Shown here: positions 7,926 through 21,026 of the stretch, in pieces
Layout: every line of letters begins with the position of its first letter
How positions within the stretch are numbered: position 1 is the first letter of the stretch
Translations under genes and position numbers: made by a program
The notes under the pieces: generated by a model
What the model saw: only the letters and a program-made list of their open reading frames with translations
The model's database searches: none
What the model was told of the DNA's origin: nothing
Source of the DNA: Tenggerimyces flavus
GTDB lineage: Bacteria > Actinomycetota > Actinomycetes > Propionibacteriales > Actinopolymorphaceae
DNA: 64,000 bases
Assembly: GCF_016907715.1 (NCBI RefSeq)
Contig: NZ_JAFBCM010000001.1
Span: forward strand, 3,968,001 to 4,032,000
Direction: 5' to 3'

Positions 7926-9107
7926 TCACGATCCCAGAACGGTGATCACCACGCGCCGGTTCTTCTGCCGGTTCGCCGCCGAGGTGTTCGGGACCGCCGG
8001 CGCCGCCTCGCCGAAGCCCTTCGTCGTGATCCGATCCGCTGGGAAACCCGCCGACTTCACCAGCCAGTCGGCGACCGAACGAGCCCGCCGTTCGGACAGC
8101 CGGAGCCCGTACGTCTCGTCGCCGCGGTCGTCGGTGTGCCCCTCGACCCGCAGCCGCGCGTTCGGCGACTTCGCCCTGATCTGCGCGGCGATGTCCCGCA
8201 GTGCCGCCTCCGCGTCGCGCCGGATCTCCGACTTGTCCGTGTCGAACAGCACGTTGCCCGGCGCGACGTACGACACCGTGCCCTCCCCAGTGAGCACGTC
8301 GACGTCCGACCGCCCTTCAAGCTTCCGCGACTCCAGCCGGCCGGGATCGACGTCGACGTCCGGCAACCGCACCGGCGGGATCCGTACGGTCTCCACCCGC
8401 ACGCTCGACTGGCTGCCGCCCGGTCGAGCCGCGCCGTTGCGGGCGATCCCCTTCCGTACCGCGCCCTTCCGGGTCACCGCGGGAAGCTCGCCGTCGTCCT
8501 CCACCTGGCACGCCTGCGGCGTGTAAGCCTCCGGCGCCGACGCGCCGGCAACGGACACCGCCGCGAACGTCTTCGCGGGTTGCGAGCCCGAAGCCGGCAG
8601 CACGCTTTCCGGGATCGTCACCGGTGGGATCGATGCCGCACTGATCCGCACCGCGCCGAGGCAGCCGCCCGGAGCGTCGTACGAAACGACGCACCCGGCA
8701 TCCACCACCTGCGACGGGATCGTGAACCCGGGCACCAGCGTCGCGCCATCGGGCCCGGTCACGGACGGAACAGTGACCGCCGCCACCACGATGTCGGGCA
8801 GGTCGCGAATGGTACGTCCCGGACCTTTCGCGCACGCGGTGTTCACTGTCGGACTCGGTGCAGGAGAGGCTGTGCCCGTTGTGGACGGCGAACCGCTTGG
8901 TGACATCGATGGGAGTGTCGGGCTCGCCGTGCCTACTGACCTGCCAGACTCTGTCGCTGTCGTTGAGGGCCCGCCCAAATCTTCACCCGACGAGCTGCTA
9001 CAAGCGGCCAATGTCACTGTGGCGGCAATTGCGGCTACACAATGCCACAAGGGGCGAGACTCGACGTTCACTGACCAAGTGTCACACGGAAGAATGTCCA
9101 GCTTCAC
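7926..9107 (-). CDS. OmpA-domain lipoprotein
   Basis: A 393-aa exported lipoprotein. The signal peptide ends in a lipobox (VTLAAC followed by SSS). A long middle region of about 200 residues lacks a known domain. The C-terminal OmpA/MotB-type domain is clear: NVLFDTDKSEIR, then VEGHTDDRGD, then LSERRARSVADWL. Such domains bind peptidoglycan. GTG 9107 is taken as start; GTG 9071 would give a shorter, more typical signal peptide. It is divergent from the exopolysaccharide cluster across about 217 bases, so it may anchor or organise that export apparatus (inference). Confidence 0.82.
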   Translation of the reverse strand: MKLDILPCDTWSVNVESRPLWHCVAAIAATVTLAACSSSSGEDLGGPSTTATESGRSVGTASPTLPSMSPSGSPSTTGTASPAPSPTVNTACAKGPGRTIRDLPDIVVAAVTVPSVTGPDGATLVPGFTIPSQVVDAGCVVSYDAPGGCLGAVRISAASIPPVTIPESVLPASGSQPAKTFAAVSVAGASAPEAYTPQACQVEDDGELPAVTRKGAVRKGIARNGAARPGGSQSSVRVETVRIPPVRLPDVDVDPGRLESRKLEGRSDVDVLTGEGTVSYVAPGNVLFDTDKSEIRRDAEAALRDIAAQIRAKSPNARLRVEGHTDDRGDETYGLRLSERRARSVADWLVKSAGFPADRITTKGFGEAAPAVPNTSAANRQKNRRVVITVLGS

Positions 9108-9324
9108 GGATTACGCGCAGATTAAGCATTGGTTAATCCGTCGATATCCATGAACTCGGGGTACGCCTCGACGATATTCTCTCGCGAGTCAGGCACGTTC
9201 GCCTGCGAGCGCCCCGGGGAGAGGTCGCTCGCACACACGACGCCGGTAGGGGTGGGGATCCCGTGAGTTTGACCAACGTGGGCGCGAGCATGCCCAAGCG
9301 CGCTCACCAGAGGGCGTGGTCGCG
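9108..9324. promoter_or_regulatory. Divergent promoter region of OmpA lipoprotein and exopolysaccharide cluster
   Basis: This 217-base gap is locally AT-rich. GGATTA (9108-9113) and TAATCC (9134-9139) form an inverted repeat, and AGATTA (9119-9124) reads TAATCT on the minus strand as a possible -10 box for the lipoprotein. No riboswitch could be recognised in the long leader before the glycosyltransferase. Confidence 0.4.
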
Positions 9325-10650
9325 ATGACCGTGCTCATGAGTCAGCCGAGCAACGGCTTCGGCTTCAGCGACATCGTGGAGTGGATCACGTCGATCTCCT
9401 TCTCCGGCGAGGATCTGTCGCACTGGCGGGCACTTGTCCCGCTCGCGGTCGCGGGGGTGGTCGTCTGGGCACTCTGGTTGTACAGGTTCACGCTGTCGAG
9501 GTTCGCGCATCCGACGGTGAACAACTTCGAGACGACCACCTCGGTCGTCGTCCCGTCGTACCACGAGGATCCGGACATCCTGCTGCGCTGCCTGCAGACC
9601 TGGCGCGCGCAGAAGCCGACCGAGATCATCGTCGTGCTGGACGTCGCCGACGAGGAGTGCTGGGAGCAGCTGGCCGCGCTGCAGGACCCGACCCTCAAGG
9701 TGATCATGTACAAGCACGCCGGCAAGCGCTCGGCGCTCGGCGTCGGAATTCGCGAAGCAATGGGAGAAGTCCTCGTTCTTACCGATTCCGACACCATGTG
9801 GCAGCCGGGTCTGCTAAAGGCGGTGCAACACCCGTTCGCCGATCCGTCGGTCGGTGCGGTCAGTACTCAGCAGAATGTGTACGAACGATCCACCAGCATT
9901 TGGCGACGCATTGCCGACTGGTTGGTGAACCTGCGGTACTACGACTACGTCCCCGCGATGGGACGGGCCGGCGCGGTCGCCTGCGTGTCCGGGCGAACGG
10001 GCGCCTACCGGCGCAGCGTCGTGCTCCCCGTGCTCGACAACCTGGAGAACGAGTTCTTCCTCGGCCGGCGCTGTGTCTCCGGTGACGACGGACGGCTGAC
10101 CTGGCTCGTGCTGGCCTCCGGCTACAAGACCGTGCACCAGTCGAACGCCCGCGCGCTGTCGATGTTCCCGGGCAAGTTCGCCGCGTTCGTCAAGCAGCGT
10201 GTGCGATGGAGCCGGAACTCCTACCGCTGCTACCTCACCGCCCTGTGGAAGGGCTGGCTGTGGCGCGTCCCGTTCGTCACGAAGGTGACCGTGCTGCAGA
10301 TCCTGCTCACGCCGGTGACGATGGGCATCACGATCGGCTACCTGGTGTTCAGCCGGCTGGAGATGGCCTGGCAGAGCATCGTGCTGGCGATCGCCTGGCT
10401 GATGATCGCGCGCGGCATCCGCGGCATCTCGCACCTGCGCAAGCACCCGTTCGAGATCCTGCTGCTCCCGGTCGTGACGATGACGGTCATCCTCATCGCG
10501 CTGCCGATCAAGCTGTACGCGTTCGTCACGATGAACAAGCAGGGTTGGCTGACGCGGTCCGAGAACACCATCGGTGGCGAGTCGCAGAACGCGGCGTCGC
10601 TGCACCGGCGCAGCCGGACCAAGGACCTGCAGACGGAGCCCGTCTCGTGA
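9325..10650 (+). CDS. Processive GT2 polysaccharide synthase
   Basis: A 441-aa membrane glycosyltransferase of the cellulose/hyaluronan/alginate synthase type. A membrane helix lies near residues 36-54, the GT-A domain starts at TTSVVVPSYHED, the DxD metal motif is TDSDT (Asp154, Asp156), the acceptor-site motif is GDD (253-255) and the processivity motif is QRVRW (291-295). Four or so membrane helices follow, forming the export channel. It should polymerise a nucleotide-sugar and extrude the chain. ATG 9325 was preferred over GTG 9316 because of the spacing to AGAGGG (9309-9314). The stop overlaps the next gene as GTGA. Confidence 0.88.
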   Translation: MTVLMSQPSNGFGFSDIVEWITSISFSGEDLSHWRALVPLAVAGVVVWALWLYRFTLSRFAHPTVNNFETTTSVVVPSYHEDPDILLRCLQTWRAQKPTEIIVVLDVADEECWEQLAALQDPTLKVIMYKHAGKRSALGVGIREAMGEVLVLTDSDTMWQPGLLKAVQHPFADPSVGAVSTQQNVYERSTSIWRRIADWLVNLRYYDYVPAMGRAGAVACVSGRTGAYRRSVVLPVLDNLENEFFLGRRCVSGDDGRLTWLVLASGYKTVHQSNARALSMFPGKFAAFVKQRVRWSRNSYRCYLTALWKGWLWRVPFVTKVTVLQILLTPVTMGITIGYLVFSRLEMAWQSIVLAIAWLMIARGIRGISHLRKHPFEILLLPVVTMTVILIALPIKLYAFVTMNKQGWLTRSENTIGGESQNAASLHRRSRTKDLQTEPVS

Positions 10651-12689
10651 CCACCCGCCGCCGCGTCTCGCGTGCCTTCACTCTGATCGTCGTCGTGCTG
10701 TTGGCCGGGCTGCTGGTCAACCAGGCAGCGTCGGCGACCATCCGTACGGACAAGACGCCGGAGTCCTCCTCGTCGCCCAAGGCGAAGAAGTCGCCGAAGC
10801 CGACGAAGTCCCCGACCAGCAAGGCGACCTCGACCCCGCCGCCGGACTCCAGCGAGTCCGAGGACCCGATCACGTCGGGCGGTACGTCGACGAGCCACGA
10901 GCGCGTCATCAAGGCCAAGCCGTACAACGGCGACCCGGAGAGCGAGGCAGCTCTGGTCGCGGACGAGGACCGCCGGCTGACCGAGATCCGTACGGTCGAC
11001 TCGTTGGCGCGCTGGAGCAAGACCGCGCTCAACACGCCGTACCGCCTCGCCACCGGCTCGGCGTACACGCTCGTGCTCACCCAGCGGAAGAAGCCGTACA
11101 CGGTCAAGGACCTGCTGGGGCTCGCGCCGCAGACGTTCCTCCGCCAACCCGACGGCTGGTATCTGCTGCAGGAGCACCTCGTGGTGCAGGCCGGCGCGAC
11201 GTTGAACCTGACGGCGTCCGGCGGCCTGAAGCTGCGACTCGCGAGCGACCCGGACGGTTTCGTCTCGATCGTCAACTACGGCGGCACGCTGAACATCCAA
11301 GGTGCACAGGGCAAACCCACGCAGATCGTCAGCTGGGACCGGGAGAGCGACAGCGCTGACCTGCTCACCGACGACGGGCGTGCGTACGTCCGTTCCATCG
11401 GCGGCCAGGTGCTGCTGCGGCACGCTCAGCTGACCGACCTCGGCTTCTGGAGCGGCCGGACCGGTGGTCTGTCACTGACCGGAACGGACCGCCCCAACAG
11501 CGGCCAGCTCGACAAGCTCGGCAAGACCATGGACGTCGGCAAGCGGGCGAAGCGCGAACGCGAGGCCGAGGAAGCGGCGAAGAAGAAGGACGAGAAGGAC
11601 GAGCCGTCCCTCGGCACCGCCGGCAAGTCCTCGCTCAGCGAGGTCCTGCCGTCCGGCGACCTCCCGCTCGACGTCGACATCGCCGACCCGGAGTACAGCT
11701 ACGTGTCGGCGTCGGTGCTGAGCACCACGATCAAGGGCAACGCGTTCGGCCTGTTCGTCGCGAGCGCGAACGGCCTCGAGGTGAAGGACAGCCGCTTCGA
11801 CAACAGCCTGGTCGACGGGCTGGTCATGCACCGGTACGTGCAGAACGCGGTCGTCGAGTCGGTGTCCGCGAGCGGCAACGCCGGCGACGGGTTCGTCCTC
11901 TCGCGGGCGACGACCGGCATCGTGATGTCGGAGATCCAGGCGAGCCGCAACCACCGCAACGGGCTCACGATGTCCGGCCTGCCGCTCGCCGACGGGCCGA
12001 GCGCGACGGGTTCGAGCCTCGGGAGCTACGGCAACAACAACGTCTCCAACAGCACGTTCGAGGAGAACGCGCGGTACGGCGTCGAGGTCATCGGCGGGCA
12101 GAACGTCGGTGTCAGCGCCAACGACCTGAACGGAGGCGACATGGGCGTCGTCGTCCGCGGCGGCGCCAAGGACGTCTCCGTGGTCGGCAACCGGGTCAGC
12201 CTCCCCGCCCGCCAGGGCATCGCGCTCCGCGACGGCGTCACCGGCGCGGTCGTGTCGGGCAACATCATCGACGGCGGCAACACCAGCGTGTACCTGCGGA
12301 ACGCGGTGGCGACGGTCAAGCGCAACACGCTGACCGACGCGACCATGCATGCGGTGACACTGGTCGGCGACGTAGGCTCGACAGAGGTGACCGGTAACAC
12401 GATCAGCGGCCGTGGGCCGAGCGCGATCGACGCCAAGCGGGCCGAGGACCTCAACATGCGACGCTGGGACAACGAGAACAGCTGGAACGACACCACGCCG
12501 TTCTTCGTGACCCTGAAGCGGTTCCTGCAGCCGCTGACGGCGATGTGGATCATCCTCGCCACGCTGTTGCTGTTCACGGCCGCGCGCGGTGCGCGCCGAG
12601 TGCGCAGGTTCATCCACCCGTACGCCGACAAGGCCGCGGTCACCAACGGCATCCCGCGGTCGGTGACCCAGGCCGGGGCTCGGTCGTGA
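10647..12689 (+). CDS. Membrane-anchored right-handed parallel beta-helix protein
   Basis: A 680-aa protein with an N-terminal signal-anchor (FTLIVVVLLAGLLVNQAASA), a Ser/Lys/Pro-rich linker (residues about 32-75), a charged coiled segment (KRAKREREAEEAAKKKDEKD) and a long parallel beta-helix. The helix is seen as repeating turns of the type VSGNIIDGGNTSVYL and VTGNTISGRG. A C-terminal membrane helix (MWIILATLLLFTAA) is followed by a basic tail. The fold is that of NosD, polysaccharide lyases and C5-epimerases. I do not see the DPHD epimerase motif. It overlaps the synthase gene (GTGA), so it probably binds, modifies or guides the nascent polymer outside the membrane. Confidence 0.8.
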   Translation: MTTRRRVSRAFTLIVVVLLAGLLVNQAASATIRTDKTPESSSSPKAKKSPKPTKSPTSKATSTPPPDSSESEDPITSGGTSTSHERVIKAKPYNGDPESEAALVADEDRRLTEIRTVDSLARWSKTALNTPYRLATGSAYTLVLTQRKKPYTVKDLLGLAPQTFLRQPDGWYLLQEHLVVQAGATLNLTASGGLKLRLASDPDGFVSIVNYGGTLNIQGAQGKPTQIVSWDRESDSADLLTDDGRAYVRSIGGQVLLRHAQLTDLGFWSGRTGGLSLTGTDRPNSGQLDKLGKTMDVGKRAKREREAEEAAKKKDEKDEPSLGTAGKSSLSEVLPSGDLPLDVDIADPEYSYVSASVLSTTIKGNAFGLFVASANGLEVKDSRFDNSLVDGLVMHRYVQNAVVESVSASGNAGDGFVLSRATTGIVMSEIQASRNHRNGLTMSGLPLADGPSATGSSLGSYGNNNVSNSTFEENARYGVEVIGGQNVGVSANDLNGGDMGVVVRGGAKDVSVVGNRVSLPARQGIALRDGVTGAVVSGNIIDGGNTSVYLRNAVATVKRNTLTDATMHAVTLVGDVGSTEVTGNTISGRGPSAIDAKRAEDLNMRRWDNENSWNDTTPFFVTLKRFLQPLTAMWIILATLLLFTAARGARRVRRFIHPYADKAAVTNGIPRSVTQAGARS

Positions 12690-13912
12690 CGCGACGAGAC
12701 TGGACGATCGCTGGAATCTCCGCCGCGGTGGTCGCGGTCCTCGCGCTCGTGATCGCCGCCATGGTGTGGCCGGATTCGCCGGATCCGCGCGCGGCCGGCA
12801 GCACGACCTCGACCGTGCCGGAGTCGCCGCTGCCGAACCCGTTGCTCACGACGTCGGCCGACCCCGAGCCTGAGGTCACCGACCCCGCGGCGAAGCCCGA
12901 CGACGAAAAGAAGGAAGAAGAGAAAGAGGAAGACGAGAAGGACAAGGAGAAGAAGCGGCCCGAGGACGCGGCGCTGCTCGCGGACGCGCCGGCCGCCGGC
13001 GAGGGGCAGCTGCCCGACTCGCAGCCGGTGACCTGTCCGCAGGCGACCGTCGAGGTGTCCGACGCGAACGGCCTGGCGAAGGCCCTCGAGGAGGCGCAGC
13101 CCGGAGCAGTCATCGGGCTGGCGGACGGGACGTACGGCGGCAAGTTCGTGACGTCGGCGTCGGGAACGCCGGAGCAGCCGATCTACTTGTGTGGTGGGGC
13201 AGGCGCCGTTCTCGACGGCGAGAACATCAAGGGCGGTTACGTCTTCCACCTCAACCAGGCGAAGCATTGGCGCCTGGTCGGGTTCACCGTCACCAACGGG
13301 CAGAAGGGTGTGATGGCCGACGGCACCGTGGGCTCGGTCATCCAGGGGTTGACCGTTCACACCATCGGTGACGAGGCGATCCACCTACGCAACTTCAGTA
13401 CCGACAATGTCGTTCTGCAGAACAAGATCAGCAAGACCGGCCTCCGCCGCGACAAGTTCGGCGAGGGCGTGTACATCGGTACGGCGGTCAGCAACTGGTG
13501 CACGAACACCGACTGCAAGCCGGACCGCAGCGACCGCAACGTCGTCAAGGGCAACGACATCCGCGAGGTCTCCTCCGAGGCGATCGACATCAAGGAGGCG
13601 ACCACCGGCGGGCTCGTCGAGGGCAACACGTTCGACGGCAAGTCCATCACCGGCGCGGACTCCTGGTTGGACATGAAGGGCAACAACTGGCTGGTCAGGG
13701 GCAACACCGGGACGAACTCGCCCCTGGACGGCTTCCAGACGCACCAGATCCTCAAGGGCTGGGGCGATCACAACGTGTTCACCCAGAACGTCGCGACGGT
13801 GAACGGTCCCGGCCACGGGTTCGCCCTCCGGCCGGCCGAGTCGAATGTCGTGAAGTGCGACAACCAGGTCTCCAATGCCGCCGAGGGCGTCAGCAACGAA
13901 CCCTGTCAGTGA
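12686..13912 (+). CDS. Membrane-anchored beta-helix protein, lyase/epimerase-like
   Basis: A 408-aa protein with an N-terminal membrane anchor (WTIAGISAAVVAVLALVIAA), a strongly charged Lys/Glu linker around residues 70-90, and a parallel beta-helix of about 280 residues. The domain opens with ANGLAKALEEAQPGAVIGLA and DGTYGG, a start typical of pectate/alginate/chondroitin lyase-like folds. Six Cys residues (in TCPQ, LCGG, NWCT, DCKP, KCDN, EPCQ) could form three disulfides. The GTG start overlaps the previous stop. It could trim or epimerise the polymer made by the GT2 synthase; the substrate is not readable from sequence. Confidence 0.78.
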   Translation: MTRRDWTIAGISAAVVAVLALVIAAMVWPDSPDPRAAGSTTSTVPESPLPNPLLTTSADPEPEVTDPAAKPDDEKKEEEKEEDEKDKEKKRPEDAALLADAPAAGEGQLPDSQPVTCPQATVEVSDANGLAKALEEAQPGAVIGLADGTYGGKFVTSASGTPEQPIYLCGGAGAVLDGENIKGGYVFHLNQAKHWRLVGFTVTNGQKGVMADGTVGSVIQGLTVHTIGDEAIHLRNFSTDNVVLQNKISKTGLRRDKFGEGVYIGTAVSNWCTNTDCKPDRSDRNVVKGNDIREVSSEAIDIKEATTGGLVEGNTFDGKSITGADSWLDMKGNNWLVRGNTGTNSPLDGFQTHQILKGWGDHNVFTQNVATVNGPGHGFALRPAESNVVKCDNQVSNAAEGVSNEPCQ

Positions 13913-14015
13913 ACCGTCCCGCTCGGTCGAGCGATACGGTAGGCGACCTTTGCAGCCTGAACTGTAACTCCCTGTAACCGCAAGTCGATGAACGAGCCGT
14001 TTGCTGGAGGATTGG

Positions 14016-15353
14016 ATGTCGACCACCGAGGGCGCGAAGCCCCGTCTCACCGTTCTCGGCACCGGGTATCTCGGTGCCACGCACGCGATCTGCATGGCCG
14101 TGTTGGGCTTCGAGGTCCTCGGGATGGATGTCGACGAGGCGAAGATCGAGACGCTCCGGTCCGGCCGCGTCCCGTTCTACGAGCCCGGGCTTCCGGAGAT
14201 GCTGCAGAAGGCGCTGGAGTCGGGGCGGCTGCGGTTCACCACGTCGTACGAGGAGGTCGCGGAGTTCGGCGACGTGCACTTCGTCTGCGTGGGAACGCCG
14301 CAGAGGAAGGGCTCGACGGCGGCGGACATGTCGTACGTGGACGCGGTGGTGTCCGGGCTCGCGCCGCACCTGGACCGGCGCGCGCTCATCGTCGGCAAGT
14401 CGACGGTCCCGGTCGGTACGGCGGCGCGGTTGACCTCGCTGGTGCAGTCGCTCGCGCCGGCGGGGACGGACATCGAGCTGGCGTGGAACCCGGAGTTCCT
14501 CCGCGAGGGCTTCGCGGTCGAGGACACGATGCGTCCTGACCGGCTGGTGTTCGGCGTGGCGTCGGACTGGGCGCGGGAGCGGCTGTCCGCCGCGTTCGCG
14601 CCGATGCTCGCCGCGGACGTTCCGCTGGTGGTGACGGATCTGCCGACGGCGGAGCTCGTGAAGGTGTCGGCGAACTCGTTCCTCGCCACGAAGATCTCGT
14701 TCATCAACGCGATGGCCGAGGTGTGTGAGGCGACCGGCGCGGACGTGCAGGATCTGGCGGCGGCGCTGGCGTACGACAACCGCATCGGCGGGCGCTTCCT
14801 GCGGCCGGGCCTCGGCTTCGGCGGCGGCTGCCTGCCGAAGGACATCCGCGCGTACATCCACCGCGCCGAGGAGCTCGGCGTCGGCCAGGCCGTCTCGTTC
14901 CTGCGCGAGGTGGACGCGATCAACCTGCGCCGCCGGGCCCGTACGGTCGACCTGATCCGCGCGCAGGCTGGGGGCTCGCTGGCCGGCGTGACCGTCTGCG
15001 CGCTCGGCGCGGCGTTCAAGCCGAACTCCGACGACATCCGCGACGCCCCGGCGTTGGACGTGGCGCGGCTGCTGCAGGAGGAGGGCGCGATCGTCCGCGT
15101 GTACGACCCGCAGGCGATGGACAACGCGCGGCGCGTTTACCCGGACCTGCACTACGCGTCCTCGGTCGCCGAAGCCGCCGCGGGTGCGCAGGTCGTGGCG
15201 CTGCTGACGGAGTGGGACCACTTCCGCGAGATCGACCCGGTCTGGCTGGGGGAACTGGTCGCGAAGAAGGCGATCGTCGATGGCCGGCACGCGCTCGACC
15301 AGTTCGCCTGGCGCGAGGCCGGCTGGGACTACAAGGCGCTCGGCCGCACCTGA
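14016..15353 (+). CDS. UDP-glucose/GDP-mannose 6-dehydrogenase family enzyme
   Basis: A 445-aa NAD-dependent sugar-nucleotide dehydrogenase, oxidising C6 of a UDP- or GDP-sugar to a uronate in two steps. The NAD site is LTVLGTGYLG (residues 11-20), the substrate lysine region is TAELVKVSANSFLATKISF, and the catalytic Cys272 is in GFGGGCLPKD. The C-terminal UDP-binding domain ends with the typical TEWDHFR. ATG 14016 has GGAGG five bases upstream. It follows the two beta-helix genes after 103 bases with a possible own promoter. It likely supplies the uronic-acid donor for the GT2 synthase. UDP-glucose is the commoner substrate of this family, but GDP-mannose cannot be excluded. Confidence 0.9.
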   Translation: MSTTEGAKPRLTVLGTGYLGATHAICMAVLGFEVLGMDVDEAKIETLRSGRVPFYEPGLPEMLQKALESGRLRFTTSYEEVAEFGDVHFVCVGTPQRKGSTAADMSYVDAVVSGLAPHLDRRALIVGKSTVPVGTAARLTSLVQSLAPAGTDIELAWNPEFLREGFAVEDTMRPDRLVFGVASDWARERLSAAFAPMLAADVPLVVTDLPTAELVKVSANSFLATKISFINAMAEVCEATGADVQDLAAALAYDNRIGGRFLRPGLGFGGGCLPKDIRAYIHRAEELGVGQAVSFLREVDAINLRRRARTVDLIRAQAGGSLAGVTVCALGAAFKPNSDDIRDAPALDVARLLQEEGAIVRVYDPQAMDNARRVYPDLHYASSVAEAAAGAQVVALLTEWDHFREIDPVWLGELVAKKAIVDGRHALDQFAWREAGWDYKALGRT

Positions 15354-15426
15354 GCTGCCGGGGGACCGTTTGGGTGAGGGGCACCCTGGTCCCATAGCCC
15401 GGCCCATCCACCATGTCCGATCAAAC

Positions 15427-15476
15427 TGTGGGGTTCTGGTCGCAACACGCCGGCGTGTCGCGACCAGAACCCCACA
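15427..15476. repeat. Near-perfect 50-base palindrome
   Basis: A 17-base arm starting TGTGGGGTTCTGGTCGC (15427-15443) pairs with 15460-15476. After a single mismatch, ACACGCC (15445-15451) pairs directly with GGCGTGT (15452-15458). The whole element forms a 24-bp stem with almost no loop. It lies downstream of the dehydrogenase gene, inside a gene-free 353-base stretch (15354-15706), and may be a REP-like element or a terminator. Confidence 0.8.
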
Positions 15477-15512
15477 CTTTCGCCAAGGGCGGAGGGTCCC
15501 CTCGCTCGAGGA

Positions 15513-15693
15513 GGTTCGGACGAGGGTGCCCCCGACCCAAGCAAAGGTGGTGGCGATGGTTGGGGTGAGGGGGCCCCTGGTCCCATAGGTTCGGACGAGG
15601 GTGCCCCCGACCCAGTCAAAGGTGGTGGCGATGGTTGGGGTGAGGGGCACCCTGGTCCCATAGGTTCGGACGAGGGTGCCCCCGACCCAGTCA
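15513..15693 (+). repeat. 75-bp tandem repeat, about 2.4 copies
   Basis: Units run 15513-15587, 15588-15662 and 15663-15693 (partial). Each unit contains AGGGTGCCCC and, about 36 bases later, its reverse complement GGGGCACCCT, so every unit can fold; in the first unit the right arm is mutated. The distal part of a unit also occurs at about 15370-15396, right after the dehydrogenase stop. I see no gene in 15354-15706. Confidence 0.85.
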
Positions 15694-15706
15694 GACGACG
15701 GGTGCG

Positions 15707-16567
15707 CTAGCGTGCGAGCCCCGCTCGAAGCTGGTCGAGCAGGTCTACTCGCCAGCGGTCCCGGTCGGGGTACTGGTCGTCGCGGTTCCAGCGCATCGCC
15801 GCGACGCCCGCCCACGTGAGGATCCGGAACTGGTGCACGAGGTCGAGGTCGGCGCCGGGATAGAGCTCGGCGACCTCCTCGGGGAGGTACGCGAGGTCGT
15901 ACTCGATCGGCCCGCGTTGGCAGGTCCCGAGGTCGATGAAGCGCGGGCCGGTGCTGGTGTTCAGCACATTCCCCGGGTGCGGCTCGCCGTGGAGCAGCTG
16001 CTCGGCCGTTCCCGCCTTCGCGATCCCCGCGGTCAGGGTGTCCTTGAGCAGCGCGCGGTCGCGCTCGGGGAGGTCCGGCGTACGTTCCCGGTCGTCCACC
16101 AGCGCGGTCCAGCCGTCGACGCGTTCGGTGACATGCGGCGCGTCCAGCTCGATCTGGCGCAGGCCGGTGTGGAGGCGGACGAGCGCGTCGACGTACTCCG
16201 CCGGCGCCAGGCCCGAGGTCCAGCCGAGCTGCTCGGGCGCCGGGCCGTCATGGTCGGCGACGACGGGCTCGTAGTACGTCCAGAACGTGATCGCGAAGCC
16301 GTCGCGGTCGTAGACGTCCGGCGCGCGGGGGTCGAGGCCGCCGATCGGGCTGTCGGTCGCGGCCAGGCGGCGGGCGACCTCCGCCTCGTACGCCATGCCG
16401 TCGTGCCAAGCGCCCGGTGCCACGCGGGCGAGCACGTCGCACGGATCCAGCCGCACGGCGATGCGGTCGGAGTTGTGCACGGCGACGGCGTCGCTGACGT
16501 CGAGGCCGAGCTCGGCGGCGGTCGTCGCGGCGGCGTCGACGGCGCGCCGGAGTACGGAGGGTTCCAT
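15707..16567 (-). CDS. Aminoglycoside phosphotransferase-fold kinase
   Basis: A 286-aa protein of the APH/choline-kinase-like superfamily. The catalytic loop reads HGEPHPGNVLN, where the usual Asp of HGDxxxxN is replaced by Glu, and the metal-binding Asp is in RFIDLGT. The N-lobe is short. Many such proteins phosphorylate small molecules other than aminoglycosides, so a resistance role is unproven. The ATG shares one base with the GntR stop (TGATG), so the gene is expressed as second gene behind its likely regulator. The palindrome and tandem repeats lie just beyond its stop. Confidence 0.75.
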   Translation of the reverse strand: MEPSVLRRAVDAAATTAAELGLDVSDAVAVHNSDRIAVRLDPCDVLARVAPGAWHDGMAYEAEVARRLAATDSPIGGLDPRAPDVYDRDGFAITFWTYYEPVVADHDGPAPEQLGWTSGLAPAEYVDALVRLHTGLRQIELDAPHVTERVDGWTALVDDRERTPDLPERDRALLKDTLTAGIAKAGTAEQLLHGEPHPGNVLNTSTGPRFIDLGTCQRGPIEYDLAYLPEEVAELYPGADLDLVHQFRILTWAGVAAMRWNRDDQYPDRDRWRVDLLDQLRAGLAR

Positions 16568-18717: not shown

Positions 18718-19950
18718 CTAGACCGCGCGGCGCAGGTCGCTCGCGAGGTTGCCTCGGTCCGCGACCTCGAGGTCGTCCAGCTCCAGCCAGCCCTGCAGGC
18801 GGCGGAGCTCCTCGGCGAGCTCCTTGGCGACATGCTTCGCGTTCTGTCCCGGCTCGGCGTACGCGCTCTGCACCATCAGCGTGCCGCGTTGGCGGTCGGC
18901 CTTGAGGTCGGTCCGGCCGACGAGGGTGTCGCCGAGCAGGAACGGCAGCACGTAGTAGCCGTACTGCCGCCGTTCGGCGGGCACGTACAGCTGCTGCGAG
19001 AGCGGGTTGGTGAAGCCGCAGAGCGCCTCGGCGGAGACGCGGATGAACGAGTCGAACGGGGTGAGCAGCGCCCGCGCGTTCACCTCGCGCGGCACCCGCG
19101 TGCCGGGGACGACGTAGCCGGGCTCCTTCCAGCCCTCGACCGCGATCTTCTCCAGCCGGCCTTCCTCGACGAGCTCGGCGATCCGCAGCTTCCAGTTCGG
19201 CCGCCTCCACCTGCCGTTCGGTGCGACGGTCAGCGTGCGGTGGCTGGGGGCCCAGAGACCGAGGTACGCGGCGACCATCTTCGCCGTGCCGACACCGACC
19301 GCCGCGGCCGCCAGGGCGAGCTGCTCGCGCTGCGCCTCCTCCGCCTCGACCTCGGGTGCGTCCAGGATCTCGCGGGGGATGACGCGCTCGGCGAGGTCGT
19401 AGAGCCTGGTGAACCCGCGCCGTCCGGCGACGGCGACGATGCCGCAGTCCAGCAGGTTCTCCAGCATGACCTTGCCGTCGTCCCAGTTCCACCACTGGCC
19501 CTTGCGGGGACGCGCGGTCGACAGTTCGGCGGCGGTCAGCGGGCCTCGTTCGACGACCTCGTCGTAGAGGGCGGCGATCAGGGCGTTGGTCGATCGCTTC
19601 GTTCCCCTCGGCCACGCGACCCAGTCCACCTCGCGGAGCGGCCAGGTGCGGTAGCGCTGCAACGGGTACAGCCGCATGGGCATCAGGCAGGCGGCGTGGC
19701 CCCAGGTCTCGAACAGCTCGCGGCGTACGTGGGTGAGCTCGTCGATCGCCGCCATCGGATACGGCCCGAGACGGGAGTAGACCGGGAGGTAGTGGGAGCG
19801 GACCAGCACGTTGATCGAGTCGAGCTGGAGGGCGAGGATCCGCAACGCGACCTTCCGGACCTGAGCCAGCGTGGCCTTCTTCACCGGCTCGCGCCCGAAG
19901 CCCTGCGCCACCAGGGCGACCCGACGGGCCTCGGCGAGCGACAGCTCCAT
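18718..19950 (-). CDS. YcaQ/AlkX-like DNA glycosylase (winged-helix family)
   Basis: A 410-aa protein of the HTH_42/YcaQ family, whose studied members unhook DNA interstrand crosslinks or excise bulky alkylated bases. The QxD catalytic motif is visible in LALQLDSINVLVRSHYLP near residues 40-55, followed by SRLGPY. Further winged-helix modules and a late Pro-Phe-Asp motif (LLTPFDSFI) complete the family pattern. The start ATG 19950 has TAGGGT eight bases upstream on the minus strand, so it is probably leaderless. In producer actinomycetes this family gives self-protection from genotoxins, but no such cluster is adjacent. Confidence 0.83.
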   Translation of the reverse strand: MELSLAEARRVALVAQGFGREPVKKATLAQVRKVALRILALQLDSINVLVRSHYLPVYSRLGPYPMAAIDELTHVRRELFETWGHAACLMPMRLYPLQRYRTWPLREVDWVAWPRGTKRSTNALIAALYDEVVERGPLTAAELSTARPRKGQWWNWDDGKVMLENLLDCGIVAVAGRRGFTRLYDLAERVIPREILDAPEVEAEEAQREQLALAAAAVGVGTAKMVAAYLGLWAPSHRTLTVAPNGRWRRPNWKLRIAELVEEGRLEKIAVEGWKEPGYVVPGTRVPREVNARALLTPFDSFIRVSAEALCGFTNPLSQQLYVPAERRQYGYYVLPFLLGDTLVGRTDLKADRQRGTLMVQSAYAEPGQNAKHVAKELAEELRRLQGWLELDDLEVADRGNLASDLRRAV

Positions 19951-19982
19951 GCCAGCCCACCCTAGCGTGACGCTGCCCGCTG

Positions 19983-20011
19983 TTGCCTCAGATACCATAG
20001 GGGGGTATGGT
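19983..20011 (+). promoter_or_regulatory. Promoter of copper operon (TTGCCT-17-TATGGT)
   Basis: TTGCCT (19983-19988) and TATGGT (20006-20011) are separated by 17 bases. The spacer is almost entirely filled by the first CsoR-like operator, so a bound repressor would block RNA polymerase. Confidence 0.6.
19992..20008. promoter_or_regulatory. CsoR-like copper operator 1
   Basis: ATACC at 19992-19996 and GGTAT at 20004-20008 form a dyad around a central A/G stretch. It matches the ATACCC...GGGTAT form known for actinobacterial CsoR repressors and sits between the -35 and -10 boxes. Confidence 0.6.
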
Positions 20012-20028
20012 CTGGATCGGAAGTTGTG

Positions 20029-20045
20029 ATACCCCTCGGGGGTAG
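20029..20045. promoter_or_regulatory. CsoR-like copper operator 2
   Basis: TACCCC-TCG-GGGGTA (20030-20044) is a perfect dyad within the expected 5' leader of the copper operon, 37 bases downstream of operator 1 and 13 bases before the ATG at 20058. No csoR gene is in the window. Confidence 0.65.
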
Positions 20046-20057
20046 ATTCGAGACGGG

Positions 20058-21026
20058 ATGGTGAACCGCATGCAGGCCGGCGTCAAGATCGGCGGGTTCG
20101 TGGTCGGGCTCGCGGCTATGTTCGGGGTCGCGTTCGCGGTGGGTTCCGCGGCGGCGCCTCCGGACAGCAAGACTGCCGCGCCGAAGCCCACGGTGACGCC
20201 GACCTCGGACGGGATGGCGGGGCACGGCGAGACCGAGCCGGCGGGCGAAGCCGAAGCCGAAGGCGAGGGCCACGGCGACGATGGGCACGGCGGAGCGGCC
20301 GAGGCCGCGACGTACGTCTCCGGCCTGGCCGCGACCGAGGCCGGCTTCACGCTGGTCCCGGCCCAGACGACCCTGACGCGCGGGCCTGCGGTGCCGTTCA
20401 CGTTCACCGTGACCGGCCCGACCGGCAAGCCCGTCACCGAGTACACCAAGTCGCACGAGAAGGACCTGCACCTCATCGTCGTCCGCCGCGACCTGTCCGG
20501 CTTCCAGCACGTCCACCCGACCCGCGCCGCCGACGGATCCTGGTCGGTCGACCTCGACCTGAGGACCGCCGGGAGCTGGCGCGTGTTCGCCGACTTCAAG
20601 CCAACCGCGACCGGCGAGACGACCACGCTCGGCACCGATGTCACGGTCGCCGGCGACTTCCGCCCAGTGCCGCTCCCGGCCGTCACGCCGAAGAGCACCC
20701 TCGAGGGCTACGACGTGTCGATCGCCGGCCACGCCGTCGCCGGCGAGGAGTCCACGTTGACGTTCACGCTCGCCAAGAACGGCAAGCAGCTCGCCGACCT
20801 GCAGCCCTACCTCGGCGCGTTCGGCCACCTCGTCTCGCTCCGCGCGAGCGACCTCGCCTACCTGCACACGCACCCCGCCGAAGAGGCGCACGCCGGGGAC
20901 ACGGGCGGGCCGGCGATCGAGTTCGCGACGACGTTCCCCACGCCCGGTACGTACCGGCTGTTCCTGGACTTCCAGCACGCCGGCCAGGTCCACACCGCGG
21001 AGTTCACCGTGGAGGTGACCAAGTGA
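20058..21026 (+). CDS. His-rich secreted/membrane-anchored copper-associated protein
   Basis: A 322-aa protein with an N-terminal signal-anchor ([20 protein letters not shown]), a His/Gly/Glu-rich linker ([16 protein letters not shown]) and two beta-sandwich-like repeats, each with a paired-His motif (FQHVHP near residue 153; YLHTHP near 275). These could bind copper outside the membrane. The gene lies directly behind the copper-type operators, and its stop overlaps the P-type ATPase start (GTGA). It likely buffers or delivers copper exported by that pump (inference). The family is common beside actinobacterial copper ATPases but is not well characterised. Confidence 0.75.

Follow-up and report, generated by a model that had tools for sequence, protein, structure and literature searches.

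What kind of polymer is made by a bacterial gene cluster in which a hyaluronan-synthase-like enzyme is encoded together with an AlgG-like protein, a predicted polysaccharide lyase and a sugar-nucleotide dehydrogenase? The question is raised by a locus of the actinobacterium Tenggerimyces flavus, whose 8.5 Mb genome consists of one contig (RefSeq assembly GCF_016907715.1). We analysed a stretch of 64,000 nucleotides of this contig (NZ_JAFBCM010000001.1, positions 3,968,001 to 4,032,000), called hereafter the window, in which four open frames occupy positions 9325–15353. In our reading, to which we give a probability of about 0.62, the four genes would be a self-contained, synthase-dependent machinery with which single-membrane actinobacteria make an extracellular uronic acid polymer derived from UDP-glucuronic acid. 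The features of the locus are the following.

9325..10650, + strand: processive synthase of glycosyltransferase family 2 (GT2), hyaluronan synthase/NodC-like, P0001, 441 residues (Pfam, NCBIfam, hyaluronan synthase profile, AlphaFold model)
10647..10650, + strand: GTGA stop/start overlap of the synthase gene with the AlgG-like gene (sequence)
10647..12689, + strand: right-handed beta-helix protein of the AlgG fold, membrane segments at both ends, P0002, 680 residues (model, AlgG matches)
12686..12689, + strand: GTGA stop/start overlap of the AlgG-like gene with the PL31-like gene (sequence)
12686..13912, + strand: PL31-type (PsAly-like) beta-helix protein, predicted lyase anchored in the membrane by its N-terminus, P0003, 408 residues (homology to 6kfn)
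14016..15353, + strand: UDP-glucose 6-dehydrogenase type enzyme, P0004, 445 residues (TIGR03026, TuaD and PDB matches)

An earlier note on this DNA had proposed this gene set and order, and both were confirmed. So were the synthase motifs (DSDT at residues 154–157, GDD at 253–255, QRVRW at 291–295) and, by hydropathy, the membrane anchors (residues 5–32 and 625–648 of the first beta-helix protein, 4–32 of the second). The proposed lack of a PilZ domain held for the four operon proteins, in which Pfam detected none; regulators elsewhere were not sought. GTGA overlaps, which the note gave for the set, are present at two of the three junctions, whereas a gap of 103 bases separates the end of the second beta-helix gene (13912) from the start of the dehydrogenase gene (14016). 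In related loci, a 4-base overlap was found at 28 of 62 synthase/AlgG-like junctions and at 33 of 71 AlgG-like/PL31 junctions.

The association of the four genes was examined in 79 distinct named loci, obtained by a synthase profile search of genome contigs from the best 80 of 211 relatives. Full gene order was counted in the 68 loci that extend 7 kb or more beyond the synthase gene. In all 68, both beta-helix genes directly follow the synthase gene, and in 62 the dehydrogenase gene is downstream as well. Among the 11 shorter loci, seven have the AlgG-like gene only, two the full set, one both beta-helix genes, and one (L096), where just 135 bases are left past the synthase gene, none of them. 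A second copy of the AlgG-like gene is present in 26 of the 79 loci, with the order 2234 in 20 and 22334 in six. Judged by the titles of their records, the loci come from Kribbella, Nakamurella, Nocardioides, Arthrobacter, Cellulomonas, Herbiconiux, Actinoplanes, Streptomyces, Pseudonocardia, Kineococcus, Actinomadura, Nonomuraea and other genera. Three of them were present twice under separate identifiers (L015/L025, L017/L023, L018/L024). For the protein alignments, homologous frames shorter than 60% of the query, without a usable start or cut by the end of the locus were left out.

Gene order is conserved beyond what chance would give. Over 45 loci, the pairwise distances of each of the four proteins correlate with those of the others (r 0.73–0.89, permuted maximum 0.28), although shared species history alone could account for part of this. 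Clustering of the flanking genes of 85 loci revealed no family present in more than 14 and no fifth conserved gene, and we therefore take the unit to be these four genes. Co-occurrence was counted in 117 genomes of a single order, Propionibacteriales. The synthase (E 1e-80 or better) was found in nine, and the AlgG-like gene, full or divergent (E 3e-26 or better), in the same nine; four further genomes gave only weak AlgG-like matches (E 1e-4 to 1e-3). PL31-type genes (E 1e-30 or better) were present in 29 genomes, 20 of which have no synthase. Conservation of the beta-helix genes without the synthase, which the earlier note named as a refutation of its reading, was observed in these genomes for the PL31 family and not for the AlgG-like family. 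No match was found when viral contigs were searched with P0002.

Some loci deserve separate mention. In Herbiconiux sp. SYSU D00978 (L032, 1930–14354) two copies of the operon adjoin. Synthases 71–72% identical to that of the window come from records titled Vibrio cholerae 35D (L029) and Stenotrophomonas maltophilia P13 (L096), with G+C contents of 67% and 63%; these are probably mislabelled or contaminated assemblies. In a variant locus (L022, 6493–11170) the synthase is 57% identical and the PL31-type gene divergent.

What does the synthase resemble? P0001 matches the Pfam family Glyco_tranf_2_3 (1e-26), and its best named NCBIfam model is NodC (4e-43), far below the cut-off of that model. 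Its solved relatives in a profile search are hyaluronan synthases (HAS; 2e-24 for the HAS chains). The AlphaFold model (mean predicted local distance difference test score, pLDDT, 84) superimposes on CvHAS with Z 33.6 and a root-mean-square deviation (rmsd) of 2.9 over 370 aligned residues (Foldseek E 2.5e-21). The best cellulose synthase reaches Z 26.9 and a chitin synthase, yeast Chs1, Z 25.5; membership in either group was set aside because the HAS structures score clearly higher. Identity is 31% to a NodC (150 bits) and 21% to the glycosyltransferase in the Alg8 position of a Rhizobium operon (45 bits). The motifs DSD(T), GDDGRLT, QR(V/I)RW and GWLTR are invariant in all 71 aligned synthases. 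By its modelled fold the synthase is hyaluronan-synthase-like, and by sequence it is not Alg8-like. The structure alignments took 40 of these 71 rows, and 70 of the 108 rows available for the AlgG-like protein.

The second beta-helix protein, P0003, is a close relative of PsAly (6kfn; 1e-44 by single sequence, 7e-70 by profile). PsAly of Paenibacillus sp. FPU-7 is described, in passages of PMC6796002, as an endolytic polymannuronate lyase with catalytic Tyr184 and Lys221, and a passage in a review (PMC8286568) assigns it to PL31. The equivalent residues of P0003 are Tyr263, kept in 96 of 96 aligned proteins (stand-alone or second copies included), and Lys303, kept in 95. The cation residues Glu260, Glu298 and Asp301 are each present in all 96, and around the site Lys207, His233, Arg235, Asp329, Lys331 and His353 are each found in at least 94. 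With its active-site residues intact, P0003 is a predicted lyase. Mannuronic and glucuronic acid have the same arrangement at C4 and C5 and differ at C2, so that a glucuronic acid polymer would be a reasonable substrate.

Relatives of P0003 encoded apart from the synthase were inspected at eight places in seven genomes; in one of these genomes (G036) the operon is present as well. The scanned frame contained the PL31 match at six of these places (not at L107 and L111), and all six proteins are secreted or multidomain, unlike the anchored operon type. L110 encodes a short secreted beta-helix protein, and L105, L106 and L109 contain multidomain frames. In two Kribbella-group genomes (L104, 5571–7466; L108, 5919–7805), a GH5 cellulase domain precedes the PL31-type beta-helix, which hints at a uronate substrate resembling a beta-1,4-glucan.

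The synthase and lyase data bear on an alternative, namely that a synthase of dual specificity joins glucuronic acid with an N-acetylhexosamine in a hyaluronan- or heparosan-like copolymer, the PL31-type protein being a glycosaminoglycan lyase. The synthase fold is nearest to that of the hyaluronan synthases, which have such dual specificity, and the enzyme also resembles NodC, which uses UDP-N-acetylglucosamine. Moreover, 11 of 40 PL31-type proteins weakly reach the Pfam model Chondroitinas_B (best 2e-5). However, the signature variants of HAS are not kept in P0001, which has QRVRW for QQxRW and GWLTR for WGTR; the nearest solved lyase relative cuts polymannuronate endolytically; and the two GH5–PL31 proteins hint at a uronate resembling a beta-1,4-glucan. 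We regard the copolymer as unlikely, although it is the best placed of the alternatives.

The identity of the sugar donor is suggested by the dehydrogenase. P0004 scores 415 bits against TIGR03026 and 366 bits against TuaD, and contains the three UDPG_MGDP_dh domains. Its best PDB match is a UDP-glucose dehydrogenase (8e-100, 338 bits) versus 3e-56 and 195 bits for GDP-mannose dehydrogenase. It is 30–33% identical to the enzymes in the AlgD position of rhizobial alginate-type operons, and after NPEFLREG it reads RPDRLVFG where those enzymes read PGAIVFG. On sequence grounds it is of the UDP-glucose type, and these comparisons point to UDP-glucuronate as the donor.

Could the dehydrogenase serve another product, for example a wall polymer of teichuronic type, and the synthase produce a chain that is neutral or built of amino sugars, such as a chitin-like oligomer or a cellulose-like glucan? 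The NodC model, best among the named ones in spite of its sub-threshold score, and the six loci of 68 without a dehydrogenase gene directly downstream would agree with this. It is nevertheless improbable, given that the dehydrogenase is kept in the other 62 loci with co-varying protein distances, that all 68 have a neighbouring PL31-type gene whose active site is intact, and that PsAly acts on a uronate whose carboxyl group meets the bound cation.

For the remaining component, P0002, the model has a mean pLDDT of 82, with values above 95 in most of the core. Among 681 aligned chains, it is closest to AlgG (4nk6, the periplasmic mannuronan C5-epimerase), with Z 35.6 and rmsd 2.4 over 346 residues, followed by AlgE6 (Z 32.1) and NosD (Z 29.1). 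A P0002 profile reaches the AlgG chains at 6e-7, and hhalign aligns it to four rhizobial AlgG proteins with a probability of 97.8 (E 1e-12); the PL31-type profile gave 2.9 against the same AlgG set. The NCBIfam AlgG equivalog scores 15.9 bits against a cut-off of 700, and has no match in the T. flavus genome at E 0.001. Judged from the model, the fold is that of AlgG over the whole domain, and N-terminal sequence features are shared. P0002 differs from AlgG by one coil fewer (counted by sequence), by its two membrane segments and by a long, low-confidence insertion at about 283–350.

In AlgG the catalytic His is His319 and the carboxylate-binding Arg is Arg345; only the D317A chain served to check this numbering. 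Passages of PMC4444821 place the catalytic His inside a DPHD motif, with the carboxylate neutralised by an Arg and a water held by Tyr314. P0002 keeps neither the DPHD motif nor an equivalent of Tyr314. Among 108 aligned proteins, His395 and Arg396 are each present in 106 and Arg420 in 105 (in L081 the bases of both sites are masked, and its protein was counted as a miss), whereas Asp238, Asp243, Arg245, Arg249 and His568 are present in all, as is Pro658, which lies behind the C-terminal membrane helix. Three of the four AlgG-chain alignments made by HMMER pair His395 and Arg420 with His319 and Arg345. In the fourth, as in hhalign, the register is shifted by one coil and Arg396 is paired with Arg345. 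Coil-wise scores fit coil 2 of P0002 to coil 2 of AlgG, and coil 3, which contains His395, best to the Arg345-bearing coil and not to the DPHD coil; they favour loss of the DPHD coil. By our own reckoning, the ends of the structurally aligned ranges (564 to 492) look more like the His-to-His register, in which the Tyr314 position is occupied by Asp, His or Asn. We keep both the plain match of His395/Arg420 to His319/Arg345, our first reading from HMMER, and the register shifted by one coil as possible. The invariant His and Arg may stand in for DPHD.

Of the two beta-helix proteins, P0002 is nearest to AlgG by its modelled fold and P0003 is close to the PL31 enzyme PsAly by sequence. The note had called the pair "epimerase or lyase": the lyase half is supported by a PL31-type protein with its catalytic residues, and the AlgG fold was found as well, but in the absence of DPHD P0002 is no more than a possible epimerase.

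True alginate, polymerised from GDP-mannuronate, with the AlgG-like protein as its epimerase and the PL31-type protein as its lyase, would suit the AlgG fold and the polymannuronate preference of the PL31 relative, but we reject it as very improbable, since the dehydrogenase is nearer the UDP-glucose than the GDP-mannose type (338 against 195 bits) and only 30–33% identical to the rhizobial AlgD-position enzymes, the synthase is HAS/NodC-like with 21% identity to the Alg8-position enzyme, and DPHD is missing.

We return to the glucuronic acid polymer. The dehydrogenase would supply UDP-glucuronic acid, as its homology suggests. From its fold and conserved motifs, the GT2 synthase would polymerise glucuronic acid, alone or with a second UDP-sugar, and extrude the chain through its own membrane channel; our first guess for this chain is a beta-1,4-linked glucuronan. 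The membrane-tethered AlgG-like beta-helix would take up and shield the chain, and would perhaps epimerise C5 of some residues. The tethered PL31-type protein, presumably acting on this chain, would trim it, size it or clear chains that become trapped in the wall space, a task that falls to AlgL in alginate synthesis. Passages of PMC4444821 state that Pseudomonas mutants without AlgG yield lyase-cut oligomers instead of alginate, and that escape of the chain from the lyase depends on AlgG. For this reason a guide or shield beside the lyase would be a natural role for P0002, even if non-catalytic, and its pairing with a lyase fits.

Several observations weigh against this scheme. The donor, the product, the epimerisation and the topology of the complex are all inferred, and the predicted models reveal no route of the chain to the beta-helix. 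P0002 lacks DPHD and Tyr314. Six of the 68 loci have no dehydrogenase gene directly downstream: in L032 it is just upstream instead, in L039 a 39%-identical one is upstream, and in L026, L040, L056 and L062 none was seen at the locus. In the variant L022, which has the synthase and both beta-helix types, no dehydrogenase was found nearby, and its AlgG-like protein (743 residues, with a long tail) lacks His395 and Arg420. We know of no PL31 activity on glucuronic acid polymers. The characterised enzyme PsAly is, in the passages of PMC6796002, a polymannuronate lyase.

How does the cluster compare with known systems? The alginate operon of Pseudomonas and Azotobacter, which comprises algD, alg8, alg44, algK, algE, algG, algX and algL, likewise encodes together a donor dehydrogenase, a GT2 synthase, an AlgG-fold protein and a lyase. 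In contrast, the synthase here is of the HAS type, the dehydrogenase of the UDP-glucose type and the predicted lyase PL31-type and not AlgL-type; no PilZ co-polymerase or outer-membrane parts were found in the cluster, and the AlgG-like protein has a membrane tether at either end and no DPHD. The streptococcal hyaluronan operon, with hasA as synthase and hasB as UDP-glucose dehydrogenase, shares a HAS-fold synthase and a UDP-glucose-type dehydrogenase in a Gram-positive, whereas here AlgG-like and lyase beta-helix genes stand between the two; to our knowledge, beta-helix proteins are not part of has operons. P0003 resembles PsAly in sequence, beta-helix, catalytic and first-cation residues, and differs from it by the membrane anchor, a long linker and its being encoded together with a synthase. 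Each part therefore has a known relative, and the set combines hyaluronan and alginate parts. The alginate/hyaluronan logic of the earlier note is supported in this sense by all four proteins.

We know of no described system with this gene set, and a literature search, with subscription papers mostly outside its reach, gave no description recognised as this cluster. The sporangium-matrix imp cluster of Actinoplanes missouriensis was considered and rejected as, in the passages describing it, a different, GT4-rich cluster. A 2020 operon survey covers alginate, cellulose, poly-N-acetylglucosamine (PNAG) and Pel, and its passages do not contain this system; they state that PNAG alone, among the synthase-dependent operons known at the time, had been characterised in Gram-positive Staphylococci (PMC7112194). 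If our reading is true, a widespread compact polyuronate system would be added to Gram-positive bacteria, and a four-gene unit is easy to express and assay.

P0002 is also a testable candidate for a bacterial glucuronyl C5-epimerase, an enzyme called elusive, except for one marine example, in passages of a 2015 review (PMC4432689). In addition, a unit of synthase, AlgG-like protein and lyase in actinobacteria bears on the origin of brown-algal alginate. Passages of PMC11468063 and PMC8307928 report that an actinobacterial origin has been proposed for alginate steps of brown algae, that these algae have no Alg8 homologue and that actinobacteria with lyases are not known for an alginate pathway; the 2024 paper of the two does not find the actinobacterial origin strongly supported for the GDP-mannose dehydrogenase. 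One may go further and propose that the product is a glycosaminoglycan-like polyuronate containing both D-glucuronic and L-iduronic acid. The HAS-like synthase would then make a glucuronic acid chain, and P0002 would be a glucuronyl C5-epimerase whose active site was rebuilt around His395-Arg396/Arg420 after loss of the DPHD coil; its actinobacterial stock may be related to the non-Alg8 polyuronate machinery of brown algae, for which acquisition from actinobacteria has been proposed. This bolder version is quite unlikely on present evidence.

Inspection of the surroundings revealed an OmpA-domain protein upstream (7926–9107, − strand), divergent from the operon and with relatives in seven of 85 loci; a two-component pair is located farther upstream. 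No sigma-70 promoter-like or terminator-like sites were found across 9000–15800. Directly past the dehydrogenase gene is a tandem repeat (15512–15693; period 75, 2.4 copies, 96% matches), and an APH-type kinase and a GntR regulator are encoded on the opposite strand downstream of the operon.

The rhizobial alginate-type operons used for comparison (L112–L115) are carried by Rhizobium megaplasmids and have AlgD, Alg8 and AlgG positions; the AlgG region of L112, L114 and L115 is inside an open frame of about 1250 codons. On the L114 plasmid, about 9 kb from the AlgG gene, a PL31-like frame (19537–20475, − strand; 33% identity, 7e-18) extends beyond the end of the stretch.

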